DNA of 64,000 bases, taken from the NCBI GenBank assembly GCA_902778275.1, contig CACYXE010000001.1, forward strand, positions 124,001 to 188,000, given 5' to 3'. Shown here piece by piece: positions 23,072 to 50,052 of the stretch. Every line of letters starts with the position of its first letter. Positions within the stretch are counted from its first letter, which is position 1. The stretch comes from Oscillospiraceae bacterium. Lineage in GTDB: Bacteria > Bacillota > Clostridia > Oscillospirales > Oscillospiraceae. The notes below the pieces were generated by a model. The model searched no databases. It was given only the letters and a program-made list of their open reading frames with translations, and was not told where the DNA came from. The translations under genes and the position numbers were made by a program.

Positions 23072-23320
23072 ATGATTTTTGATGCGCGTTGACGAGCAGG
23101 AGTACACAGCAGGCGGACTTCAGAGAAGAGGCGGGTGGTGCGAGCCTCCAGGATGCCCTGTGGAAGGTCGGCTCTGAGCGCCCGGGGTGAAGGGGTGACC
23201 TGTGTAGCTTCGGCGTAAGGTCTGCGTTAAGGGCCGGAGAGTGCCGCAGCAATGCGGAATTCAGGTGGTACCGCGGTAATGATTATCGCCCTGAGACGGA
23301 AACGTCTCAGGGCGTTTCCC
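23072..23320 (+). promoter_or_regulatory. T-box riboswitch controlling valS (valine specifier GTC)
   Basis: The core T-box AGGTGGTACCGCG is at 23263-23275. An intrinsic terminator lies at 23288-23313 (GCCCTGAGACG / CGTCTCAGGGC, loop GAAA) followed by GTTTCCC. Stem I can be drawn with GAGC/GCTC and CACAG/CTGTG helices around a specifier loop with 5' AGGAGTA and 3' GAAGGTCG. This puts the valine codon GTC (23167-23169) in the specifier position. Uncharged tRNA-Val would favour the antiterminator and valS transcription. Confidence 0.93.
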
Positions 23321-26829: not shown

Positions 26830-27536
26830 GCGAGGAGCTCTATGAGGCGATCCGTGCGGCTCAGGCCGGGGACCGGGAGGCAGCCGGCAGACTGGTGGAA
26901 GAAAACGCGGGACTGATCTGGAGCGTGGCCCGGCGCTATTTCGGTCGGGGCACCGACCCGGAGGACCTGTACCAACTGGGCTGCGTAGGCTTCCTGAAAG
27001 CCATCGAAGGTTTTGATCTGAGCTACGGCACCCGGTTTTCCACCTACGCGGTTCCCAAGATCTCCGGGGAGATCCGGCGCTTTCTCCGGGATGACGGGAC
27101 GGTGAAGGTCAGCCGCGGGATCAAGGAGCAGGCGGCGCAGATCCGGGCCGCCCGCACGGCGCTGGAACAGCGGATGGGACGGGAGCCCACCATCACCGAG
27201 CTTGCCAGAGAGACGGGAATGACCCCGGAGGATATCGCCTTTGCCGAGACGGCTACCGGTCCCGCCGAGAGCCTGCAGCGGGAGAGCGGCGACGACGGCT
27301 TTACCCTGGAGCACGTGCTGGGCGACTACGCTGCGGAAGAGCGCATGGTGGAGCACGTGGCCCTGCGGGCGGTGATCGAGAAGCTGCCGGAACGGGAGCG
27401 CCAGGTGGTGGCGCTGCGCTATTATCACGGCATGACCCAGCAAAACTGCGCCAGGGTGATGCGGGTCTCTCAGGTGCAGATCTCCCGCCTGGAACGGCGG
27501 GCGGTAGAGCTGCTGCGCCAATGGCTCCAGGCTTAA
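26826..27536 (+). CDS. sigF: Forespore sigma factor F
   Basis: 236 aa sigma-70 family factor, first forespore-specific regulator of sporulation. Region 2: AAGRLVEENAGLIWSVARRYF, DPEDLYQLGCVGFLKAIEGFD, TRFSTYAVPKISGEIRRFLRDDG (about 18-90). Region 3: MGREPTITELARETGM (about 118-134). Region 4: LPERERQVVALRYYHGMTQQNCARVMRVSQVQISRLERRA (about 188-228). Start ATG 26826 is set by the ATGA overlap with spoIIAB. Confidence 0.95.
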   Translation: MSEELYEAIRAAQAGDREAAGRLVEENAGLIWSVARRYFGRGTDPEDLYQLGCVGFLKAIEGFDLSYGTRFSTYAVPKISGEIRRFLRDDGTVKVSRGIKEQAAQIRAARTALEQRMGREPTITELARETGMTPEDIAFAETATGPAESLQRESGDDGFTLEHVLGDYAAEERMVEHVALRAVIEKLPERERQVVALRYYHGMTQQNCARVMRVSQVQISRLERRAVELLRQWLQA

Positions 27537-27545
27537 GACCGGGTC

Positions 27546-27608
27546 TCGTTCCGGCATGTGCGGAATGATCAGATTCCCGGAAAGCGAAAGGAAATCTTTG
27601 TCTATTTT
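27546..27608 (+). terminator. Possible terminator region after sigF
   Basis: Two weak hairpins (TTCCG/CGGAA at about 27549-27565; AGATTCCC/GGAAATCT at about 27571-27597) are followed by TTTGTCTATTTTT. Weak compared with other terminators here. Confidence 0.4.
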
Positions 27609-27613
27609 TCTGC

Positions 27614-27642
27614 TTGACAAGAGAGAGGGGAGAGATTATATT
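27614..27642 (+). promoter_or_regulatory. Promoter of the aro (shikimate) operon
   Basis: TTGACA (27614-27619), 17-base spacer, TATATT (27637-27642). The transcript starts about 30 bases before the leader-peptide ATG. Confidence 0.88.
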
Positions 27643-27677
27643 TATTTACAGTGTTAAAGAGCCGTAAGGAGAAGCCT

Positions 27678-27731
27678 ATGAACGCCCGTTTTTATACCGC
27701 ATATTATTACTTTACTGTCACGCAGCGGTAA
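27678..27731 (+). CDS. Aromatic-amino-acid leader peptide (attenuator)
   Basis: A 17-residue ORF, MNARFYTAYYYFTVTQR, with an excellent ribosome site (AAGGAG 6 bases before ATG). Six of its 17 residues are Phe or Tyr, including YYYF. It lies between a strong promoter and an intrinsic terminator before aroF, in the arrangement of pheL-type leader peptides. Ribosome stalling at Tyr/Phe codons when charged tRNA is low should prevent terminator formation and switch on the shikimate/Phe/Tyr operon. This is inferred; I could not recall a described family with this sequence. Confidence 0.82.
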   Translation: MNARFYTAYYYFTVTQR

Positions 27732-27776
27732 GGGTAATTTGTGGTGCAAAGATAGGCTGAAGAGTTTGCTTTCAAT

Positions 27777-27811
27777 GCTGCACAGGTTACGCCTGTGCAG
27801 CTTTTTCTTTT
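27777..27811 (+). terminator. Attenuator terminator of the aro operon
   Basis: A perfect 10-bp GC-rich stem GCTGCACAGG / CCTGTGCAGC (27777-27786 / 27792-27801) with loop TTACG, then TTTTTCTTTT. It lies 45 bases after the leader-peptide stop and 36 bases before aroF. A competing weak pairing GCAAA/TTTGC (27746-27750 / 27765-27769) may belong to the antiterminator. Confidence 0.9.
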
Positions 27812-27846
27812 CCGTAAAACGGTTCAAATCATAGGAGGAAAGAATC

Positions 27847-28848
27847 ATGATCGTTGTATTGAAGCACGGAACATCTCCCGACAGACAGGAGCAGCTGATC
27901 CACTGGCTGAAGAATCTGGGACTGCAGATCCACGTTTCCAAGGGCGAGTCCTATACGGTCCTCGGCCTTGTGGGCGACACCAGCCGTGTGGATATGGACC
28001 TGGTGGGCAGCCTGGATATCGTGGATGCGGTCAAGCGCGTTTCCGAGCCCTTCAAGTGCTGCAACCGGAAGTTCCACCCGGAGGATACCGTGGTGGAAGT
28101 AGGCGATGTAAAGATCGGCGGCGGTCATTTTGCCATGATCGCGGGTCCCTGCTCCGTGGAGAGCGAGGAGCAGATCGTGGCGGTGGCGAAGGCGGTAAAG
28201 GCCTCCGGCGCAGATCTGCTGCGCGGCGGCGCCTTCAAGCCCCGTACTTCCCCCTATGATTTCGCGGGCCTTAAGGCCGAAGGTCTGGAGCTGCTGAAGA
28301 TCGCCAGAGCGGAGACGGGCCTGCCCTTTGTGACCGAGCTGATGAACATCATGGATCTGGACCTGTTCGAGGACGTGGACGTGATCCAGGTGGGCGCGCG
28401 GAACATGCAGAACTTCGACCTGCTGCGGGAGCTGGGCAAGGTGGACAAGCCCATCCTCTTAAAGCGCGGTCTGGCCAATACCCTGAAGGAACTGCTCATG
28501 AGCGCGGAGTACATCATGGCCAGCGGCAACGAGCAGGTCATGCTCTGCGAGCGGGGCATCCGCACCTTCAGCGATTATACCCGCAATACCCTGGACCTCT
28601 CTGCGGTCCCCATGCTGCGGGAGCTGAGCCATCTGCCCATCATCGTGGATCCCAGCCACGCCACCGGCATTGCCCGCCTGGTGCCGCCTATGGCCCTGGC
28701 GGCCACGGCTGCCGGCGCGGACGGCCTGATCATCGAGGTCCACAACGATCCCATCCACGCCCTCTGCGACGGCGCCCAGTCCCTGCGGCCGGAGGAGTAT
28801 GACAAGCTGGCGGCCAAGGTCCGCAGCATCCGGGGGGTCGTGGCATGA
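27847..28848 (+). CDS. aroF: 3-deoxy-7-phosphoheptulonate (DAHP) synthase, AroA-beta type with ferredoxin-like regulatory domain
   Basis: First step of the shikimate pathway: PEP plus erythrose 4-phosphate. 333 aa. The N-terminal ACT/ferredoxin-like domain (1-70: MIVVLKHGTSPDRQEQLIHWL) usually mediates Tyr/Phe inhibition. The barrel has HFAMIAGPCSVES near 97-108, GAFKPRTSPYDF near 129, LLKRGLANTLKELL and DPSHATGIARLV near 268-280. RBS AGGAGGAAAGAATC. First structural gene after the attenuator. Confidence 0.95.
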   Translation: MIVVLKHGTSPDRQEQLIHWLKNLGLQIHVSKGESYTVLGLVGDTSRVDMDLVGSLDIVDAVKRVSEPFKCCNRKFHPEDTVVEVGDVKIGGGHFAMIAGPCSVESEEQIVAVAKAVKASGADLLRGGAFKPRTSPYDFAGLKAEGLELLKIARAETGLPFVTELMNIMDLDLFEDVDVIQVGARNMQNFDLLRELGKVDKPILLKRGLANTLKELLMSAEYIMASGNEQVMLCERGIRTFSDYTRNTLDLSAVPMLRELSHLPIIVDPSHATGIARLVPPMALAATAAGADGLIIEVHNDPIHALCDGAQSLRPEEYDKLAAKVRSIRGVVA

Positions 28849-29675
28849 AAGTCGGCATTGTCGGACTGGGCCTGATCGGAGGATCCCTGGCAAAGGCATA
28901 CAAGGCGGCGGGGCACCAGGTCCTGGCCCATAACCGCAGCCGCTCCACGCTGGATTTTGCCATGCTCAGCGGCGCGGTGGATGAGGAATTGACAAGGGAA
29001 AATATCAGCGATTGTGATCTTGTCCTGGTGGCGGTCTATCCTCAGGCGGCCATCGACTATCTGAAGGAGATGGGCCCCTATATCGGGAAAAAGCCCATCG
29101 TTATCGACTGCTGCGGCACCAAGCGCGTGGTCTGTGAGGCCTGTTTTCCAATTGCGGAGGAGTACAGCTTCACCTATCTGGGCGGTCATCCTATGGCGGG
29201 CACCCAGTATTCCGGCTTCAAATATGCCAAGGCGGATCTGTATCAGGGGGCGCCCATGGTGATCGTACCGCCGCGCTTTGACGATATCGAGCTGTTGGGC
29301 CGGGTCAAGGAGCTGCTGGCGCCTGCGGGCTTCGGTTCCTTTTCCGTCACCACGGCGGACAAGCACGACGCCATGATCGCCTTCACCTCACAGATGGCCC
29401 ACGTGGTGTCCAACGCCTACATCAAGAGCCCGACCGCCGGGGTCCACAAGGGCTTTTCCGCAGGCAGCTACAAGGATATGACCCGTGTGGCCTGGCTCAA
29501 TCCCCAGATGTGGGCGGAGCTGTTTCTGGAAAATAAGGACTGCCTGCTGTACGAGCTGGATCTGTTCATCAGCAGCCTGCAGCAGTACAAGGAGGCCATG
29601 GAGACCGACGATCTGGACCGGCTGGTCCGACTTCTGGATGAAGGGAGAAAGCGCAAGGAGGAGGTGGACGGCTGA
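28845..29675 (+). CDS. tyrA: Prephenate dehydrogenase
   Basis: NAD(P)-dependent oxidative decarboxylation of prephenate to 4-hydroxyphenylpyruvate (Tyr branch). 276 aa without a C-terminal ACT domain. Rossmann motif KVGIVGLGLIGGSLAKAY; conserved YLGGHPMAGTQYSGF near 109-122; helical dimer domain with AFTSQMAHVVSNAYI near 180-195. It overlaps aroF by 4 bp. Confidence 0.93.
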   Translation: MKVGIVGLGLIGGSLAKAYKAAGHQVLAHNRSRSTLDFAMLSGAVDEELTRENISDCDLVLVAVYPQAAIDYLKEMGPYIGKKPIVIDCCGTKRVVCEACFPIAEEYSFTYLGGHPMAGTQYSGFKYAKADLYQGAPMVIVPPRFDDIELLGRVKELLAPAGFGSFSVTTADKHDAMIAFTSQMAHVVSNAYIKSPTAGVHKGFSAGSYKDMTRVAWLNPQMWAELFLENKDCLLYELDLFISSLQQYKEAMETDDLDRLVRLLDEGRKRKEEVDG

Positions 29676-30733
29676 TGACCGTCGTTCCCGTGAAAGCTTC
29701 CCGTGATTATGAGGTGCTGATCGGCGCCGGGCTCCTGGACGAGCTGGGCAGCCGACTGCGCAGGGTCAGCGGTGCGAAGACCGCCGCCGTGATCTCGGGC
29801 GAGCATGTGTTCCCTCTGTATGGGGCGCGAGCGATCGCCTCTCTCGAGGCGGCGGGTTTTCGGGTGATCCACTATGTGCTGCCCCAGGGGGAGGCGGCCA
29901 AGAGCCTCGCCGTCTATGGGAAACTGCTGGATTTTCTGTCGGTCAACCGCATGACCCGCGGAGATGTCCTCGTCGCCCTGGGCGGCGGCGTGACCGGGGA
30001 TCTGACCGGCTTTGCGGCTGCCACCTATCAAAGGGGCGTCGGCTTTGTCCAGGTGCCCACGACCCTGCTTGCGGCGGTGGATTCCTCCGTGGGCGGCAAG
30101 ACCGCCATCAATCTGCCCACAGGCAAAAACCAGGTGGGCTGTTTCTACCAGCCGCTGCTGGTCCTGTGCGATCCGACTGTACTGGATACCCTGCCGGAAG
30201 AGGAATTCCGATGCGGCAGCGCGGAGGTCCTGAAATACGGCGTTCTGGGCAGCCGGGCCTTTTTCGATGAACTGGTGCGCACGCCCATCCATAAGCAGCT
30301 GGAGCATGTGATCCGGACCTGCGTGGAGATGAAACGGGATATCGTGGCCGAAGACGAATTTGACCGGGGAAAGCGGCAGCTGCTGAATCTGGGTCACTCC
30401 TTTGGCCATGCAGTGGAGGCCTGCAGCGGCTTTACGGTGCTGCACGGACAGGCCGTGGCCATCGGCATGGCGGCCATCACCCGGGCCGCCGCGGCGAAGG
30501 GCTGCTGCAGCCAAGAGACTGTGGACGAGCTGCTGGCCGCATTGGAGCAGTTCGGCCTGCCGACGCACACAGAGTATCCGCTGGACGACATGGTCCGGTC
30601 GGTGTATACGGATAAAAAGCTGGACGGCGATACCATGCATCTGGTGGTGCCGGAGGCCATCGGCCGCTGCCGGATCCAGGCGGTCCCGATCACAGAGGTC
30701 AGGGACTGGATGCGGCTTGGAGGGATCGGATGA
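29675..30733 (+). CDS. aroB: 3-dehydroquinate synthase
   Basis: Converts DAHP to 3-dehydroquinate using NAD and Zn. 352 aa. Motifs: VLVALGGGVTGDLTGFAAATYQRGVGFVQVPTTLLA split over 98-133, DSSVGGKTAINLPTGKN near 136-152, and metal ligands in EVLKYG and GHSFGHAVEA near 240-255. Its ATG shares a base with the tyrA TGA (TGATG). Confidence 0.96.
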   Translation: MTVVPVKASRDYEVLIGAGLLDELGSRLRRVSGAKTAAVISGEHVFPLYGARAIASLEAAGFRVIHYVLPQGEAAKSLAVYGKLLDFLSVNRMTRGDVLVALGGGVTGDLTGFAAATYQRGVGFVQVPTTLLAAVDSSVGGKTAINLPTGKNQVGCFYQPLLVLCDPTVLDTLPEEEFRCGSAEVLKYGVLGSRAFFDELVRTPIHKQLEHVIRTCVEMKRDIVAEDEFDRGKRQLLNLGHSFGHAVEACSGFTVLHGQAVAIGMAAITRAAAAKGCCSQETVDELLAALEQFGLPTHTEYPLDDMVRSVYTDKKLDGDTMHLVVPEAIGRCRIQAVPITEVRDWMRLGGIG

Positions 30734-31986
30734 ACAAGACACTTACACCGGGAGAGCGCACAGGCTGCGTCCGGGTCCCGGCGTCCAAATCCCAGGCCCA
30801 CCGACTGCTGATCTGTGCCGCGCTGGGAACAGGGGAGACGCTGATCTGCTGCGACGGGATCTCCAAAGATATCAAGGCCACCATGGATTGCCTTACTGCC
30901 CTGGGGGCTGAGATCTTGCTCCTGCCGGACGGACAGATCCTGGTAAAGCCCATTCGGGCCGTCCCTGCGAGAGCGGATCTGTATTGCGGTGAGAGCGGTT
31001 CCACCCTGCGTTTCCTGCTGCCGCTGGCAGGCGCCCTGGGCGCGAACGCGGTTTTCCACATGGAGGGGCGGCTGCCCAAGCGGCCACTGGCGCCGCTGGA
31101 TGAGCAGTTGCGCGCTCACGGTATGCAGATCGAGCAGGAAGACGATCTGCTCCTCTGCGGCGGGCAACTGCGCCCCGGCGCGTATACCCTGCCGGGCAAC
31201 GTGTCCTCCCAATACATTTCCGGCCTGCTGATGGCCCTGCCGCTTTTGCCGGGGGACAGCAGCCTGACGGTCAGCGGACAGGTGGAGTCGGCGGCCTATA
31301 TCACCATGACGGAGGACGCCCTGTCGCTCTCCGGCATAAGACTTGAAAAGAACGATAACCGATACAGCATTCCCGGCAGGCAGCGGGCAAAGCTGCCGGA
31401 GCAGCTGCAGGTGGAGGCGGATTATTCCAACGCGGCCTTCTTTCTGAGCATCGGCGCCCTGTCAGGACCCGGGATGAATGTCAAGGGGCTTTCCCCGGAT
31501 TCCTCCCAGGGCGACAAGGCGGTTTTGGAGATCCTGGAGCGCTGCGGCGCGGAACTATGGATCCGGGAGGATGCCGTGTGGATCCGCAGAAGTGAGCTTC
31601 GCGGCTGTAAGATCGACGCAGCGCCTGTTCCGGATCTGATCCCGGTGCTGGCTGTTGTGGCTTCTGTGGCGAAAGGAGAGACCCGGATCGTCAATGCTGC
31701 CCGCCTGCGGCTGAAGGAATCCGACCGGCTGGCCAGCACCACACAAATGCTCAAGGCCCTGGGCGCGGACATCACGGAATTGGACGACGGTCTTGTGATC
31801 CACGGTGTGGAGGCCTTGACCGGCGGCACGGTGGACGCCTGCGGCGATCACCGGATCGCTATGGCGGCGGCTGTGGCCGCCTGCGCCTGTACAGGTCCGG
31901 TGAACGTCATCGGCGCGGAATGCGTACAGAAGTCCTATCCTCGCTTCTGGGAGGATTATGAGCAATTGACAGGAGGCGAAGTATGA
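30730..31986 (+). CDS. aroA: 3-phosphoshikimate 1-carboxyvinyltransferase (EPSP synthase)
   Basis: Joins PEP with shikimate 3-phosphate. 418 aa, two inverse alpha/beta barrels. Motifs: RVPASKSQAHRLLICAAL near 15-31, GESGSTLRFLLPLA near 86-99, EGRLPKRPLAPL, VSSQYISGLLMALPL near 157-171, and RLKESDRLAST near 326. It overlaps aroB by 4 bp. Residue 89 of the SGSTLRF loop keeps the usual Gly-Ser-Thr pattern. Confidence 0.95.
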   Translation: MNKTLTPGERTGCVRVPASKSQAHRLLICAALGTGETLICCDGISKDIKATMDCLTALGAEILLLPDGQILVKPIRAVPARADLYCGESGSTLRFLLPLAGALGANAVFHMEGRLPKRPLAPLDEQLRAHGMQIEQEDDLLLCGGQLRPGAYTLPGNVSSQYISGLLMALPLLPGDSSLTVSGQVESAAYITMTEDALSLSGIRLEKNDNRYSIPGRQRAKLPEQLQVEADYSNAAFFLSIGALSGPGMNVKGLSPDSSQGDKAVLEILERCGAELWIREDAVWIRRSELRGCKIDAAPVPDLIPVLAVVASVAKGETRIVNAARLRLKESDRLASTTQMLKALGADITELDDGLVIHGVEALTGGTVDACGDHRIAMAAAVAACACTGPVNVIGAECVQKSYPRFWEDYEQLTGGEV

Positions 31987-33053
31987 GCAGCAGTTACGGA
32001 GAGAATTTTCATCTGACCATTTTCGGCCAGTCCCATTCTCCGGCCATCGGCGTGACCATGGAGGGCATTCCCGCCGGGGAGGACTTGGATCTGGAGGAGC
32101 TGCAGCGCTTTCTGAACCGGCGCGCGCCCGGGAATAATGCTTATTCTACCGCCCGCAAGGAGGCGGACGTGCCGGAATTCGTGTCGGGATTAAAAGGAAA
32201 TATCACCTGCGGCGTGCCCATTACGGCACTCATCCGCAATACCGATACCCGTTCCCAGGATTATTCCGGTCTGGACCGCGTGCCGCGGCCCGGCCACGCG
32301 GACTATACCGCGGCGGTGAAATACTTCGGAGCCCAGGACTACGCAGGCGGAGGGCATTTCTCCGGGCGTCTGACGGCTCCGCTCTGCATCGCGGGCGGGA
32401 TCTGCATCCAGCTTCTGCGCAAAGAGGAGATCGGGATCATCTCCCGGATCGCCTCCATCGGCGGCGTTCGGGATGAGGGCGCCCTGACCGCTTCCACCGC
32501 GGAGAAGGCTTTCCCCACGGTCAGCGATGAGCGGGGAGAAGAAATGCAGGCGCGGATTGCCCAGGTAAAAGCGGAGGGCGACTCCGTGGGCGGCGTGATC
32601 GAGTGTGCGGTGCTGGGCCTGCCCGCCGGACTGGGCGACCCCATGTTCGACGGCATGGAGAACCGGATCGCCGCCATCGTATTCGGCATCCCTGCTGTCA
32701 AGGGCATCGAGTTTGGCGAGGGCTTTGCCGCGGCGGAGCTGTGCGGCAGCGAGAACAACGATTGCTTTACCGTCGAGGGAGGCAAGGTGGTGACCACGAC
32801 CAACCACAGCGGCGGCATCCTGGGCGGTATCACCAACGGTATGCCTCTGTGCTTTCGGGTGGCGGTCAAGCCCACCGCGTCCATTGCCAAAGAGCAGGAC
32901 AGCGTGGATCTGCAGACGCTGCAGCCGGAAAAGCTGACGGTGACAGGGCGGCACGATCCCTGCATCGTGCCCCGGGCCGTGCCCGTTGTGGAGGCCGCGG
33001 CGGCCATCGCGGTATACGACGCGCTGCTCCAGCGCAGAAAAGAGATGAGGTGA
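31983..33053 (+). CDS. aroC: Chorismate synthase
   Basis: FMN-dependent trans-elimination giving chorismate. 356 aa. Signatures: FHLTIFGQSHSPAIGVTMEG near 8-27, RRAPGNNAYSTARKEAD near 47-63, GGGHFSGRLTAPL near 121-133, and TTNHSGGILGGITNGMPL near 271-288. It overlaps aroA by 4 bp. Confidence 0.96.
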   Translation: MSSSYGENFHLTIFGQSHSPAIGVTMEGIPAGEDLDLEELQRFLNRRAPGNNAYSTARKEADVPEFVSGLKGNITCGVPITALIRNTDTRSQDYSGLDRVPRPGHADYTAAVKYFGAQDYAGGGHFSGRLTAPLCIAGGICIQLLRKEEIGIISRIASIGGVRDEGALTASTAEKAFPTVSDERGEEMQARIAQVKAEGDSVGGVIECAVLGLPAGLGDPMFDGMENRIAAIVFGIPAVKGIEFGEGFAAAELCGSENNDCFTVEGGKVVTTTNHSGGILGGITNGMPLCFRVAVKPTASIAKEQDSVDLQTLQPEKLTVTGRHDPCIVPRAVPVVEAAAAIAVYDALLQRRKEMR

Positions 33054-33060
33054 CGTGACT

Positions 33061-34203
33061 ATGGACCTGAAAGAATGCAGAAGGGAGATCGACTCCATCG
33101 ACGATCAGCTGCTGGAGCTGTTTGCCAGGCGCATGGGTGTCTCGGCCCAGGTGGCGGCCTACAAAAAGGAACACGGGCTGCCTGTCCTTGACGCTGCCCG
33201 GGAGCGGGAAAAGCTGAACGATGTGCTGCAGAAGAGCCCGGAGGGCATCGGGGAGTACGCGGTGAGCCTGTTCTCCCTCATCATGGACCTCAGCCGCAGC
33301 AGCCAGAACCGGCTGCTGGGGACTCATACCGAGCTGACGAAGCAGATCACCCAGGCCATCGAGATCACACCCCGGCTGTTCCCGGCCAATGCAACAGTGG
33401 CCTGCCAGGGGGTGGAGGGCGCCTATTCCCAGATCGCGTGCGAGAAGCTGTTCAAGCTGCCGAGCATCTCCTATTATCCCAGCTTCGGCTCGGTGTTCAC
33501 CGCCATTGAGGAGGGAAAGTGCCGCTACGGTGTGATCCCCCTGGAAAACAGCACGGCCGGGTCCGTGAACGCGGTTTATGATCTGATGATGCAGCACAAC
33601 TTTCGTATCGTCCGCAGTGTGCGGATCAAGGTGGACCACAATCTGCTGGTCAAGCCCGGGACTCAACTGAGCGATATTCGGGAGATCTATTCCCACGAGC
33701 AGGCCATCAGCCAGTGCGCGGGCTTCCTGCAGAAGCTCAGCGGCGTCAAGGTGATCCCCTGCGCCAATACGGCTGTGGCAGCCAAAATGGTGTCCGAGGC
33801 AGGGGACAACAGCGTGGCAGCCCTGTCCTCCCGTTCGTGCATGAAGCTGTACGGCCTCTCCTGCCTGGCGGAGTCGGTGCAGGACAAGGGCAACAACCAC
33901 ACCCGCTTTATCTGCATCAGCAAGGACCTGGAAATTTACCCCGGCGCTGACCGGACCAGTCTGATGCTGGTGCTGCCACATACGCCCGGCTCTCTGTATA
34001 AGGCCCTGTCCCGCTTCTATGCGCTGGGGATCAACCTGATCAAGCTGGAGAGCCGCCCGCTGCCGGACCGAAACTTCGAATTCATGTTTTATTTCGACCT
34101 GGATATATCGGTCTATTCACCGCAGTTTATCCAGTTGATGGGGGAGCTGGAATCCATCAGTGAGGACTGCTCTTACCTGGGCAGCTACAGTGAGGTGATA
34201 TGA
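33061..34203 (+). CDS. pheA: Bifunctional chorismate mutase / prephenate dehydratase (P-protein)
   Basis: Directs chorismate to phenylpyruvate (Phe branch). 380 aa. N-terminal AroQ-type chorismate mutase (about 1-85: CRREIDSIDDQLLELFARRMGVSAQVAAYK). Prephenate dehydratase domain (about 105-285: VACQGVEGAYSQIACEKL, PLENSTAGSVNAVYDLM, and the TRF motif in NNHTRFICI). C-terminal ACT domain (about 296-375) with the Phe-binding LPHTPGSLYKAL and LESRPLPDRNFEFMFYFD. Start ATG 33061 is taken because GAGGTGA lies 7 bases upstream; GTG 33055 is too close. Confidence 0.95.
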   Translation: MDLKECRREIDSIDDQLLELFARRMGVSAQVAAYKKEHGLPVLDAAREREKLNDVLQKSPEGIGEYAVSLFSLIMDLSRSSQNRLLGTHTELTKQITQAIEITPRLFPANATVACQGVEGAYSQIACEKLFKLPSISYYPSFGSVFTAIEEGKCRYGVIPLENSTAGSVNAVYDLMMQHNFRIVRSVRIKVDHNLLVKPGTQLSDIREIYSHEQAISQCAGFLQKLSGVKVIPCANTAVAAKMVSEAGDNSVAALSSRSCMKLYGLSCLAESVQDKGNNHTRFICISKDLEIYPGADRTSLMLVLPHTPGSLYKALSRFYALGINLIKLESRPLPDRNFEFMFYFDLDISVYSPQFIQLMGELESISEDCSYLGSYSEVI

Positions 34204-35426
34204 TGCTCAAATGCGGACTTTTGGGGGAAAAGCTGGGGCACAGCTATTCCCCGGCCATCCACAGCATGCTGGCAGACTACGAGTATAAGCTCTATGAGCG
34301 CAGCCCCGAGGACGTTGAGGCCTTCATCCGGCATGGCGAATGGGATGGGCTGAACGTGACCATACCCTACAAGAAGACGGTGATGCCCTTCTGCGACCAG
34401 CTGTCCGAAACGGCAAAGCGAATCGGCAGTGTCAACACACTGGTGCGGCGAGCGGACGGCAGCATCTTCGGAGACAATACAGATGCCTACGGCTTCGAGC
34501 GCCTGGTGCGGCGCAGCGGCATCCAGATCCAGGGGAAGAAGGCACTGGTCCTGGGCAGCGGCGGCGCGTCCGTGACGGTGTGCGACGTGCTGCAAACGCT
34601 GGGAGCCGCCAGCGTCACGGTCATCTCCCGGGGTGGGGAGAACAATTACGGCAATCTGGAACAGCACGCCGACGCTCAGATCATCGCCAACACCACGCCC
34701 CTTGGAATGTACCCCAACACGGGCAAAGCGGCGGTGGATCTGCGTCAGTTCCCAAAATGCGAGGGCGTGCTGGACGTAGTCTACAACCCGGCCCGTACGG
34801 CGCTGATGCTGCAGGCGGAAGCTCTGCACATCCCCTGCGCCAGCGGCTTGTATATGCTGGTGGCCCAGGCCAAGCGCAGCTCGGAGCTGTTCACTGGCAC
34901 AAGCATCGACGACAGTCAGATCGACCGCATCGAGCATATACTGGCCTCCTCCATGCAGAACGTGGTGATCATCGGCATGCCCGGCAGCGGGAAAAGCACG
35001 GTTTCCGCCGCCCTGGGACAGAGGCTTGGCCGCCCGGTCCGGGAGGCGGACGCCCTGATCGCGGAGCAGGCCGGCTGCAGCATCCCGGAGATTTTTGCTG
35101 CCCAGGGGGAGGAGGGCTTCCGGAAGCTGGAAACAGAGGTGCTCGCGCAGCTGGGAAAACAGTCCGGCGCCATCCTGTCCACTGGCGGGGGCTGCGTGAC
35201 CCGGGCGGAAAACTATCCCTTGCTGCACCAGAACGGGACGATCTTCTGGCTCCAGCGGGACACGGCGCTTCTGCCCAGAGACGGCCGCCCCATCTCCCTG
35301 CGCAGCGATCTGAACGAACTCTATGAAAAGCGCAGACCCATGTATGAGGCCTTTGCCGACTATGTGATCGACAACAACGGCAGCCTGGAAGAGACGGTAG
35401 AAAAGATCCTGGAGGTGCTGGCATGA
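34200..35426 (+). CDS. aroE-aroK: Fused shikimate dehydrogenase - shikimate kinase
   Basis: 408 aa. Residues 1 to about 248 are AroE (LGEKLGHSYSPAIHSML, GLNVTIPYKK, GDNTDAYGFERLV, ALVLGSGGASVTVCDVL, IIANTTPLGM, GLYMLVAQA). Residues from 254 on are shikimate kinase (VVIIGMPGSGKSTVSAAL P-loop, READALI, STGGGCV, RRPMYEAFADYVI). One protein thus covers reduction of dehydroshikimate and phosphorylation of shikimate. No frameshift or stop at the junction. It overlaps pheA by 4 bp; ATG 34203 is an equally possible start. Confidence 0.94.
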   Translation: MMLKCGLLGEKLGHSYSPAIHSMLADYEYKLYERSPEDVEAFIRHGEWDGLNVTIPYKKTVMPFCDQLSETAKRIGSVNTLVRRADGSIFGDNTDAYGFERLVRRSGIQIQGKKALVLGSGGASVTVCDVLQTLGAASVTVISRGGENNYGNLEQHADAQIIANTTPLGMYPNTGKAAVDLRQFPKCEGVLDVVYNPARTALMLQAEALHIPCASGLYMLVAQAKRSSELFTGTSIDDSQIDRIEHILASSMQNVVIIGMPGSGKSTVSAALGQRLGRPVREADALIAEQAGCSIPEIFAAQGEEGFRKLETEVLAQLGKQSGAILSTGGGCVTRAENYPLLHQNGTIFWLQRDTALLPRDGRPISLRSDLNELYEKRRPMYEAFADYVIDNNGSLEETVEKILEVLA

Positions 35427-35869
35427 GGCTTCTGGTGATCAACGGGCCCAACATCAACATGTTGGGGATCCGGGAGCCGTCTATCTACGGCAAGGAGGAT
35501 TTCCATGCGCTGCAGGAGCTGGTGCGGAAAACCTGCAGCCAGGAGGGCATTGAGGTGGAGCTGTTCCAGTCCAACCATGAGGGCGCCATCGTGGACAAGA
35601 TCCAGAGCGCTTACGGCGTCATGGATGGGATCGTGATCAACCCGGCCGCCTACACCCATACCAGTGTGGCCATCCTGGACGCGCTGAAAGCGGTGGCCAT
35701 CCCGGCGGTTGAGGTCCACATCTCCGATGTGAAAACCCGGGAGGATTTCCGCCAAATCTCCTACGCGGGCATGGCCTGCATCAAGACTTATATGGGGCTG
35801 GGACTTGACGGATACCGGCAGGCGATATTATATTTAAAACAATATCTGAACGAACACGGCGTGGGGTAA
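35423..35869 (+). CDS. aroQ: 3-dehydroquinate dehydratase, type II
   Basis: 148 aa dodecameric type II enzyme. Catalytic Tyr/Arg loop LLVINGPNINMLGIREPSIYG near 3-23, FQSNHEGAIVDKIQ near 50, INPAAYTHTSVAILDAL near 72-88, and VEVHISDVKTREDFR near 97-110. It overlaps aroE-aroK by 4 bp and completes the shikimate pathway in this operon. Confidence 0.96.
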   Translation: MRLLVINGPNINMLGIREPSIYGKEDFHALQELVRKTCSQEGIEVELFQSNHEGAIVDKIQSAYGVMDGIVINPAAYTHTSVAILDALKAVAIPAVEVHISDVKTREDFRQISYAGMACIKTYMGLGLDGYRQAILYLKQYLNEHGVG

Positions 35870-35875
35870 GAGAGT

Positions 35876-36586
35876 ATGATCGCAGTTTTTGTGAATATGG
35901 CGACGGTACTGATCGGCAGTGTGCTGGGCATCCTGTTTCGCAACCGTTTGAAGGTCGAGCTGCAGAACGCCGTCATGCGTGTGCTGGCCTTGTGCACCCT
36001 GGTCATCGGCATTTCCAGCGCCATCGCCACCCGGGAGCTGCTGTGTGTGATCATCTGCCTGGTGCTGGGCACGGTGCTGGGGGAGCTGATCCGTATCGAC
36101 GACGGCATCGAGAACGCGGGAGACTTCATCAAGAATAAGGTGCTGAAAGGTAAGGTGAAGGAAAACCGTTTTACCGAGGGCTTCGTGTCCGCCTGCATCC
36201 TGTTTTGCATCGGTTCTATGACCATTGTGGGCTCCCTGGAGGCCGGTATCAACCACAACTACAGCATCATCTACGCCAAGAGCACCCTGGACTTTGTGTC
36301 CTCCATGGCCTTTGGCGCGGCTATGGGCTTTGGGGTGACCTGTTCGGTACTGTTCATCCTGGTGTTTCAGGGGGGGCTGACCCTGTTAGCCGGGCTGGTG
36401 GGTCCGGCGCTGAGTACCGCTGTGGTCACGGAGATGTCCGCTGTGGGCGGTACCATTCTGATCGGGATGGGGCTCAACATGGTGGGGGCCTTAAATGAGC
36501 GGGTCAAAGTGGCCAATATGCTGCCGGCCATCTTCCTGCCCATCGCCTATTTCCCCATAGCAAACTGGCTGAGCAGCCTGTTCTGA
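35876..36586 (+). CDS. DUF554 family membrane protein
   Basis: 236 aa, about seven hydrophobic segments, family DUF554 (YdfK/YqgA-type). N-terminal VFVNMATVLIGSVLGILF and conserved acidic LGTVLGELIRIDDGIE, SMTIVGSLEAGINHNY, and MGLNMVGALNERVKVANMLPAI. Transport substrate unknown. It lies 6 bases after aroQ, last gene of the aro operon, so a role with aromatic compounds is possible but unproven. Confidence 0.88.
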   Translation: MIAVFVNMATVLIGSVLGILFRNRLKVELQNAVMRVLALCTLVIGISSAIATRELLCVIICLVLGTVLGELIRIDDGIENAGDFIKNKVLKGKVKENRFTEGFVSACILFCIGSMTIVGSLEAGINHNYSIIYAKSTLDFVSSMAFGAAMGFGVTCSVLFILVFQGGLTLLAGLVGPALSTAVVTEMSAVGGTILIGMGLNMVGALNERVKVANMLPAIFLPIAYFPIANWLSSLF

Positions 36587-36598
36587 AAAAGAAAAGAG

Positions 36599-49830: not shown

Positions 49831-50052
49831 CGTTGATACATAAGGGCTATGACGAAACGAGTCAGCCTGAGGACAGCACAGAGAGGGGCCGGACGGTGCG
49901 AGACCCCGTGTCCGGAGCTGACAGCCACTTCCGAGCCTTCCCGGGAAACCGGGGCGTATGCCTGCGTTAAAGGCGCTGAGAGGCCGCATTGCGGCAAATC
50001 AGGGTGGTACCGCGAATTCACCTTCGCCCCTGCCGGGGCGGAGGTCTATTTT
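49831..50052 (+). promoter_or_regulatory. T-box riboswitch controlling alaS
   Basis: T-box core AGGGTGGTACCGCG at 50001-50014. Terminator stem CCTTCGCCCC / GGGGCGGAGG (50021-50030 / 50035-50044), loop TGCC, then TCTATTTTTTT. Stem I carries the CAGAGAG and GGTGCGAGACC landmarks also seen in the valS leader. An alanine specifier is available as GCT (49917-49919) or GCC (49924-49926). I favour GCT by spacing with the valS leader. Confidence 0.92.

Follow-up and report, generated by a model that had tools for sequence, protein, structure and literature searches.

In the pheL-pheA and trpL-trp attenuators of E. coli, control follows a logic of alternative strand pairings (1:2, 2:3 and 3:4), and the leader described here can be drawn in the same way. 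As in our leader, the control codons are those of the end product (PMC11802643, as far as its accessible text goes); the bacteria and the genes are others, and the comparison stops short of the sequences. In Corynebacterium glutamicum, the aroR leader of the aroF operon encodes a short peptide with Phe-Tyr-Phe (PMC11802643, PMC4046766), and ribosome stalling is reported to raise transcription under Phe limitation, Tyr being without effect (PMC11802643). Judged by the description in these excerpts, aroR resembles our leader in placing a leader peptide before a DAHP synthase gene, and differs in its host (Actinobacteria), its three-residue run and the reported lack of a Tyr effect. Another candidate, uORFC-13-1 of Acholeplasma, combines Phe codons and a terminator before aroF; in the portion of the source at hand it has 24 representatives, from Acholeplasma and environmental sequences, with at least one Phe, and its mechanism is only proposed (PMC8632094). 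Its likeness to our leader is again one of description, not of alignment. PMC6429828 (Fig. 6b legend and section 15), a study of five genomes (HIMB5, Clostridium novyi, Thermovirga lienii, Arcobacter sp. L and Baumannia cicadellinicola), reports two uORF candidates for shikimate genes that contain F and Y; like our leader, they join Phe and Tyr with an association to shikimate genes.

The locus studied here lies in a stretch of 64,000 nucleotides (the window) from an Oscillospiraceae bacterium. For amino-acid genes of this phylum, control by T-boxes or repressors is the usual description. The available parts of PMC2965389 and PMC9413887 describe these genes mostly in such terms, and also contain predictions of leader-peptide attenuators for histidine genes of Firmicutes, in places otherwise left to T-boxes or repressors; these share the phylum with our leader and differ in their genes (histidine) and lineages. 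In the freely readable article text covered, we recognised no description of the present leader family in these bacteria. Since aroR-aroF and the Acholeplasma aroF candidate are already known, the aro leader is of a known kind, and the leaders reported here are a large addition to the known leader-peptide attenuators, not a new mechanism.

An earlier note on this DNA had pointed to a near-consensus promoter, a 17-residue ORF with six Phe/Tyr and a strong ribosome site, and a terminator before aroF, and had counted nine genes downstream. We recover all of these elements, with 35 bases between the terminator end and the aroF start. The leader and the genes behind it are laid out as follows.

27614..27642, plus strand: promoter TTGACA-17-TATATT, matching the consensus at 11 of 12 positions
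27666..27671, plus strand: Shine-Dalgarno (SD) sequence AAGGAG of the leader ORF
27678..27731, plus strand: leader ORF MNARFYTAYYYFTVTQR, 17 residues with 2 Phe and 4 Tyr; stop TAA at 27729-27731
27684..27718, plus strand: strand 1, coding; predicted from folds and synonymous recoding to pair with 27725-27757 (strand 2 inside) when ribosome-free
27702..27713, plus strand: main control codons Tyr-Tyr-Tyr-Phe (TAT TAT TAC TTT)
27734..27747, plus strand: strand 2, GTAATTTGTGGTGC, 5' half of the predicted antiterminator, beginning 20 nt past the last aromatic codon
27777..27790, plus strand: strand 3, GCTGCACAGGTTAC, common to the predicted antiterminator and the terminator 5' arm
27777..27811, plus strand: intrinsic terminator, strands 3:4; stem 27777-27801, T tract TTTTTCTTTT at 27802-27811
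27847..28848, plus strand: aroF, DAHP synthase (NCBIfam)
28845..29675, plus strand: tyrA, prephenate dehydrogenase
29675..30733, plus strand: aroB
30730..31986, plus strand: aroA
31983..33053, plus strand: aroC
33055..34203, plus strand: pheA, chorismate mutase and prephenate dehydratase
34200..35426, plus strand: aroE-aroK fusion
35423..35869, plus strand: aroQ
35876..36586, plus strand: gene for a DUF554 protein (Pfam PF04474)

Judging from its close spacing, the DUF554 gene is probably the last of the operon. It is followed by a 20-pair terminator-like site at 36596; with the eight aro genes before it, the count of nine fits. Within the window, a short, SD-preceded ORF with at least six aromatic residues in ten and no more than 280 nt from aroF arises in 1 of 3000 dinucleotide shuffles of the upstream region. 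The leader RNA folds 3.9 sd below the shuffle mean (1 of 200 shuffles folds as well), and its sequence occurs once in the 2.38 Mb assembly. A helix that would sequester the start codon (AGCCTAT/ATAGGCT) is present in the window and, by eye, absent from its genus-mates; we discarded it as a conserved element.

We consider it very probable that the leader works as a ribosome-mediated transcription attenuator, in which the charging of tRNA-Phe and tRNA-Tyr is sensed. With both tRNAs charged, the ribosome would reach the stop codon and cover strand 2, the terminator would form, and transcription would end before aroF. With either tRNA uncharged, the ribosome would stall in the Tyr/Phe run and cover strand 1, leaving strand 2, about 20 nt downstream, to pair with the terminator 5' arm and allow read-through into the operon. 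On a leader without a ribosome, strand 1 would pair with strand 2 and the terminator would again form. From the parts of the leader, their conservation, the terminator/antiterminator pairing and the tendency in codon content, we infer the stalling, termination and read-through themselves. It was as ribosome-mediated attenuation that the earlier note had read this locus, and the conserved leaders, the terminator, the paired antiterminator and the codon content all argue for that reading.

The earlier note had proposed examining related leaders for aromatic codons and a terminator, and both are kept. We searched genome contigs for AroF and retained the best 80 loci, in 78 of which the aroF start is present (L036 and L064, with aroF cut at a contig end, were dropped). 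A short, SD-preceded ORF no more than 280 nt from aroF, with at least six aromatic residues in ten, is found in 66 of these 78, versus 5 of 1580 dinucleotide shuffles and none of 79 antisense regions, and we rejected a chance ORF on these counts. Four further loci reach five residues in ten. By eye, L002, L023, L029 and L077 also show an aromatic ORF, which is less dense or has a weaker ribosome site. Upstream of aroF in L014 and L016 are related leaders that end in CWRWRKF and NWRWRKF, with Trp codons and no clear terminator. Among the carriers with names are Oscillibacter, Dysosmobacter and Faecousia assemblies and Eubacterium pyruvativorans strain i6. Searching the order for an exact pattern of the element recovered 2 of 147 genomes; this was too strict to help, and we set it aside.

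Beyond these loci, a phylum sample comprised 159 genomes, 142 of them with an AroF match, from which 29 loci and 60 chosen regions were examined. The leader is present with 10 of the 14 nearest AroF; at least six aromatic residues in ten are reached in 2 of 75 more distant upstream regions, one of the two (L159) being a duplicate of L087. Upstream of a distant aroF outside the main group (L169), there is an aromatic ORF beginning MHNPLASKINQVNNFYFKNWCFYFSTGYLRC. Among 26 further loci from relatives, 13 of the 15 from the window's own genus have at least five aromatic residues in ten or a run visible by eye (L181 and L183-L192 at least five by script, L198 nine, L194 by eye); L182 has four, and L193 has no aromatic leader run. 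In other families of the order, 9 of 11 further loci carry an aromatic leader, with none in L196 and L207.

Of 82 leaders examined, 81 have a hairpin with a T-rich tail downstream of the ORF. Three of these hairpins (L014, L016, L048) fail to reach -5 kcal/mol and are probably wrong calls. For the structure tests and the promoter count, seven of the 81 leaders, in which the terminator or the ORF is doubtful, were left out (L014, L015, L016, L043, L048, L073, L085); the structure work also drew on 11 extra leaders from the phylum sample, picked because a leader is present. A promoter matching at least 10 of 12 consensus positions precedes 45 of 74 homologous leaders, versus 43 of 1480 mononucleotide shuffles. 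Alignment A1 holds 43 of the 44 leaders retained by filtering for motifs in strand 2 and in the terminator arm; because its rows were chosen by this filter, conservation of those motifs is partly due to selection. In A1, 93.9% of terminator cells are paired versus 83.2% in shuffles, above all 500 of them and with slid registers far lower; 50 cells are changed on both sides versus 15.1 expected, and 8 pairs show changes on both sides versus 4.3 in shuffles.

The antiterminator was no part of the earlier note. We find it here, and its pairing is kept: 92.9% of 2:3 cells in A1 are paired, above all 500 shuffles (88.6%), versus 28-56% in slid registers, and 25 cells are changed on both sides versus 9.4 expected; pairs with changes on both sides are no more frequent in A1 than in shuffles (4 vs 3.9). 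Across 74 leaders, strand 2 begins a median 19 nt past the last aromatic codon, its partner being the terminator 5' arm. This pairing supports an antiterminator that is mutually exclusive with the terminator. When partners are swapped among leaders, strands 2 and 3 give a moderate signal (mean rank 0.26, with 0.5 expected by chance). In 72 of the 74, predicted 2:3 pairing is greater with a ribosome at the last aromatic codon than at the stop, under an assumed footprint of 12 nt. In 72 of 74 leaders the antiterminator duplex is weaker than the terminator, so read-through would depend on the order of folding during transcription.

The 1:2 helix in the window register shows no covariation across A1 (70.6% paired vs 71.8% in shuffles), and registers seem to differ between subgroups. 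Over 74 leaders, native 1:2 folding surpasses that of synonymous recodings which leave the peptide unchanged (mean z -1.35), with p at 0.05 or below in 25 of them, and in the ribosome-free fold strand 2 prefers strand 1 to strand 3 in 49 of 74.

The mix of codons in the leader tends to follow the end products that the genome can make, with exceptions. Fifty genomes were compared for leader codons and pheA (35 from the 78 loci and 15 bearing G handles), and 45 counted; left out were two duplicates (G309, G331), two with no scripted leader (G308 and G317, the latter visible by eye in L194) and one with no pheA match (G314). The Phe fraction is lower in seven genomes whose pheA is mutase-only than in 38 with the dehydratase (Mann-Whitney p 0.0007), in a test whose p-values ignore relatedness and in which many genomes are incomplete assemblies. 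No Pfam PDT match was found in any of the seven. The value becomes p 0.002 with two related rows merged, p 0.008 without two genomes that had been predicted, and, with G314 included, p 0.0007 on Phe counts and 0.006 on fractions. That prediction, made beforehand, was that the Tyr-heavy leaders L183 and L191 would, if tracking were strict, precede operons without pheA. In both, pheA is cut to its chorismate mutase domain and the genome has no dehydratase match, so the prediction held as to the dehydratase domain, and the mutase domain remains. A prediction for G168 came out weakly: its other aroF sits inside an operon, with no leader seen.

Natural splits of the pathway bear on the same tendency. 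G328 (L012) has two aroF genes: a leader with 7 Phe and 1 Tyr precedes aroF-aroB-aroA-aroC-pheA-aroEK, and a second leader, MNRTQNLHYAYYYYYRFTGIFGRAVL, with 6 Tyr, 2 Phe and its own terminator, precedes aroF2-tyrA. In G329 and G330, the operon lacks tyrA, the assemblies contain no PDH_N match, and the dehydratase is present; their leaders (6F 1Y 1W and 3F 2Y 2W) have Tyr as 1 of 8 and 2 of 7 aromatic residues, and both contain Trp. Exceptions include L065, with no dehydratase in the assembly and yet 4F 5Y, and, if its missing pheA is real, G314 with 3F 2Y; L026 and L028 are middling. We also considered a narrower rule, in which Tyr codons go with a tyrA beside aroF. The three loci without an adjacent tyrA that have the lowest Tyr fractions give a permutation p of 5e-5, for loci chosen after looking. 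Tyr codons are nevertheless kept where tyrA is not beside aroF in L087 (G086), L089 (G065), L205 and L208, and in G086 and G065 tyrA is located elsewhere in the genome; these two contradict the rule and point instead to whole-genome capacity. Two gene arrangements were noted alongside. In L269 (5805-7307), a single 500-aa protein joins chorismate mutase to aroE-aroK; the genome has no prephenate dehydratase match. In L219 (5280-5740, minus strand), a TrpB-like gene with its own T-box-like leader, seen by eye, follows the aro operon in a genome without a PDH_N match.

Could the RNA do all of this without a sensing peptide? The codons would then be kept only to pair with strand 2, the ORF would be incidental or unread, and a metabolite or protein would control the fold. 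Some of the evidence leans that way: TTACTTT is at least 90% conserved at every column in A1, the nucleotides of ATTTGTGNTGC are also at least 90% conserved there, partly through row selection, and 1:2 folding exceeds that of synonymous recodings. Window positions 27696-27812 also match the full length of the RF04312 trpB motif, the best sub-threshold family, which has a similar hairpin-plus-terminator layout; the score (31.3 bits, gathering cut-off 59) excludes membership, and of 117 genomes of the order 54 have a match at E <=0.1 and none has one over the cut-off. However, Phe/Tyr runs are still kept in leaders whose strand 2 and terminator arm are quite different in sequence, and in the core (the most aromatic-rich part of each of 74 leaders) Phe and Tyr make up 524 of the 672 residues, both synonymous codons are in use, and only 30 residues are one-base neighbours. 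The SD and the open frame are kept as well, and codon choice tends to follow end products. We therefore give a peptide-free switch little credence. RF04312 itself is termed a riboswitch candidate (PMC11109978); in the text available its authors do not decide on attenuation, so a look for leader ORFs among its members may be worthwhile. At gathering thresholds, no Rfam family matches the leader in the window, the 78 loci or 20 of 29 further loci. A T-box (RF00230) was rejected for the window leader, with no covariance match at 27540-27900, while 23080-23296 before valS does match.

Two other explanations seem to us hardly tenable. A translated regulator peptide might act in trans, or might be a small protein with a function of its own, as shared tails such as FGKAFRGLAE in one subgroup might suggest, but in that subgroup the coding sequence of the tail is the predicted antiterminator strand, and outside the aromatic run both sequence and length vary widely. 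Just as improbable is a plain terminator of a sporulation operon, with ORF and pairing there by chance. A spoIIAA-like gene, spoIIAB and a gene that we take from its sequence to encode a sigma factor do end at 27536, just upstream; a promoter lies in between, however, the layout recurs before aroF in many genomes, and shuffles almost never yield such an ORF.

The attenuator that we favor is not the only device of this general type in the cell. T-box RNA is bound directly by tRNA, unlike a leader-peptide attenuator; like the aro leader, the T-box leaders of this genome are associated with control of transcription by attenuation in response to tRNA charging. Seven T-box matches, two of them over the cut-off, precede genes for valS, asnB, alaS, a TrpB-like protein, a TrpX-like protein (below the curated cut-off of its family), pheS and thrS; valS, alaS and thrS are presumably what their sequences suggest to us. 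In the window itself, the T-box before valS is over the Rfam cut-off, and one at 49840-50034 before an alaS-like gene is below it. With a T-box match before pheS and a leader-peptide ORF before the aro operon, two ways to read tRNA-Phe charging probably coexist in one cell. Among 20 loci scanned, one distant aroF (L099) has a T-box over the cut-off instead of the leader. Upstream of aroF in L268, from the same order and with relatives that carry the leader peptide, a T-box-like sequence is visible by eye. Elsewhere in the window, on the minus strand from 47097 to about 46966, an ORF of 43 residues lies between an SD and a terminator-like hairpin; it contains an Ile/Leu run as well as Gly-Cys and Asn repeats.

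On an AroF tree of 134 rows, picked by AroF similarity, the leader is present in 107 of 119 rows of one clade and in none of 15 on the other side (labelled by eye: L014 and L016 without a leader; L002, L023, L029, L077 and L194 with one). The leader label changes 12 times, and at least six of these changes are forced by well-supported branches. This distribution fits one early origin with losses, and is not proof of it. We lean, with some reserve, toward an attenuator that was already present in the ancestor of one large AroF clade (mostly gut Clostridia), was passed on together with aroF, and was retuned by loss or gain of Phe, Tyr and Trp codons as branch enzymes were lost or split; its codons would then be a record of the aromatic amino acids made.

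Finally, T-box matches precede pheS and tryptophan-related genes in a genome whose shared Phe/Tyr operon has a translatable leader ORF in front of it. The leader family is a large one, is found mostly in uncultured bacteria, and includes natural variants whose codons and pathway genes change in step. These variants make the choice between sensing systems, and their retuning, open to test. If the link between codons and capacity holds, such short leaders could help to predict Phe or Tyr auxotrophy from genomes.
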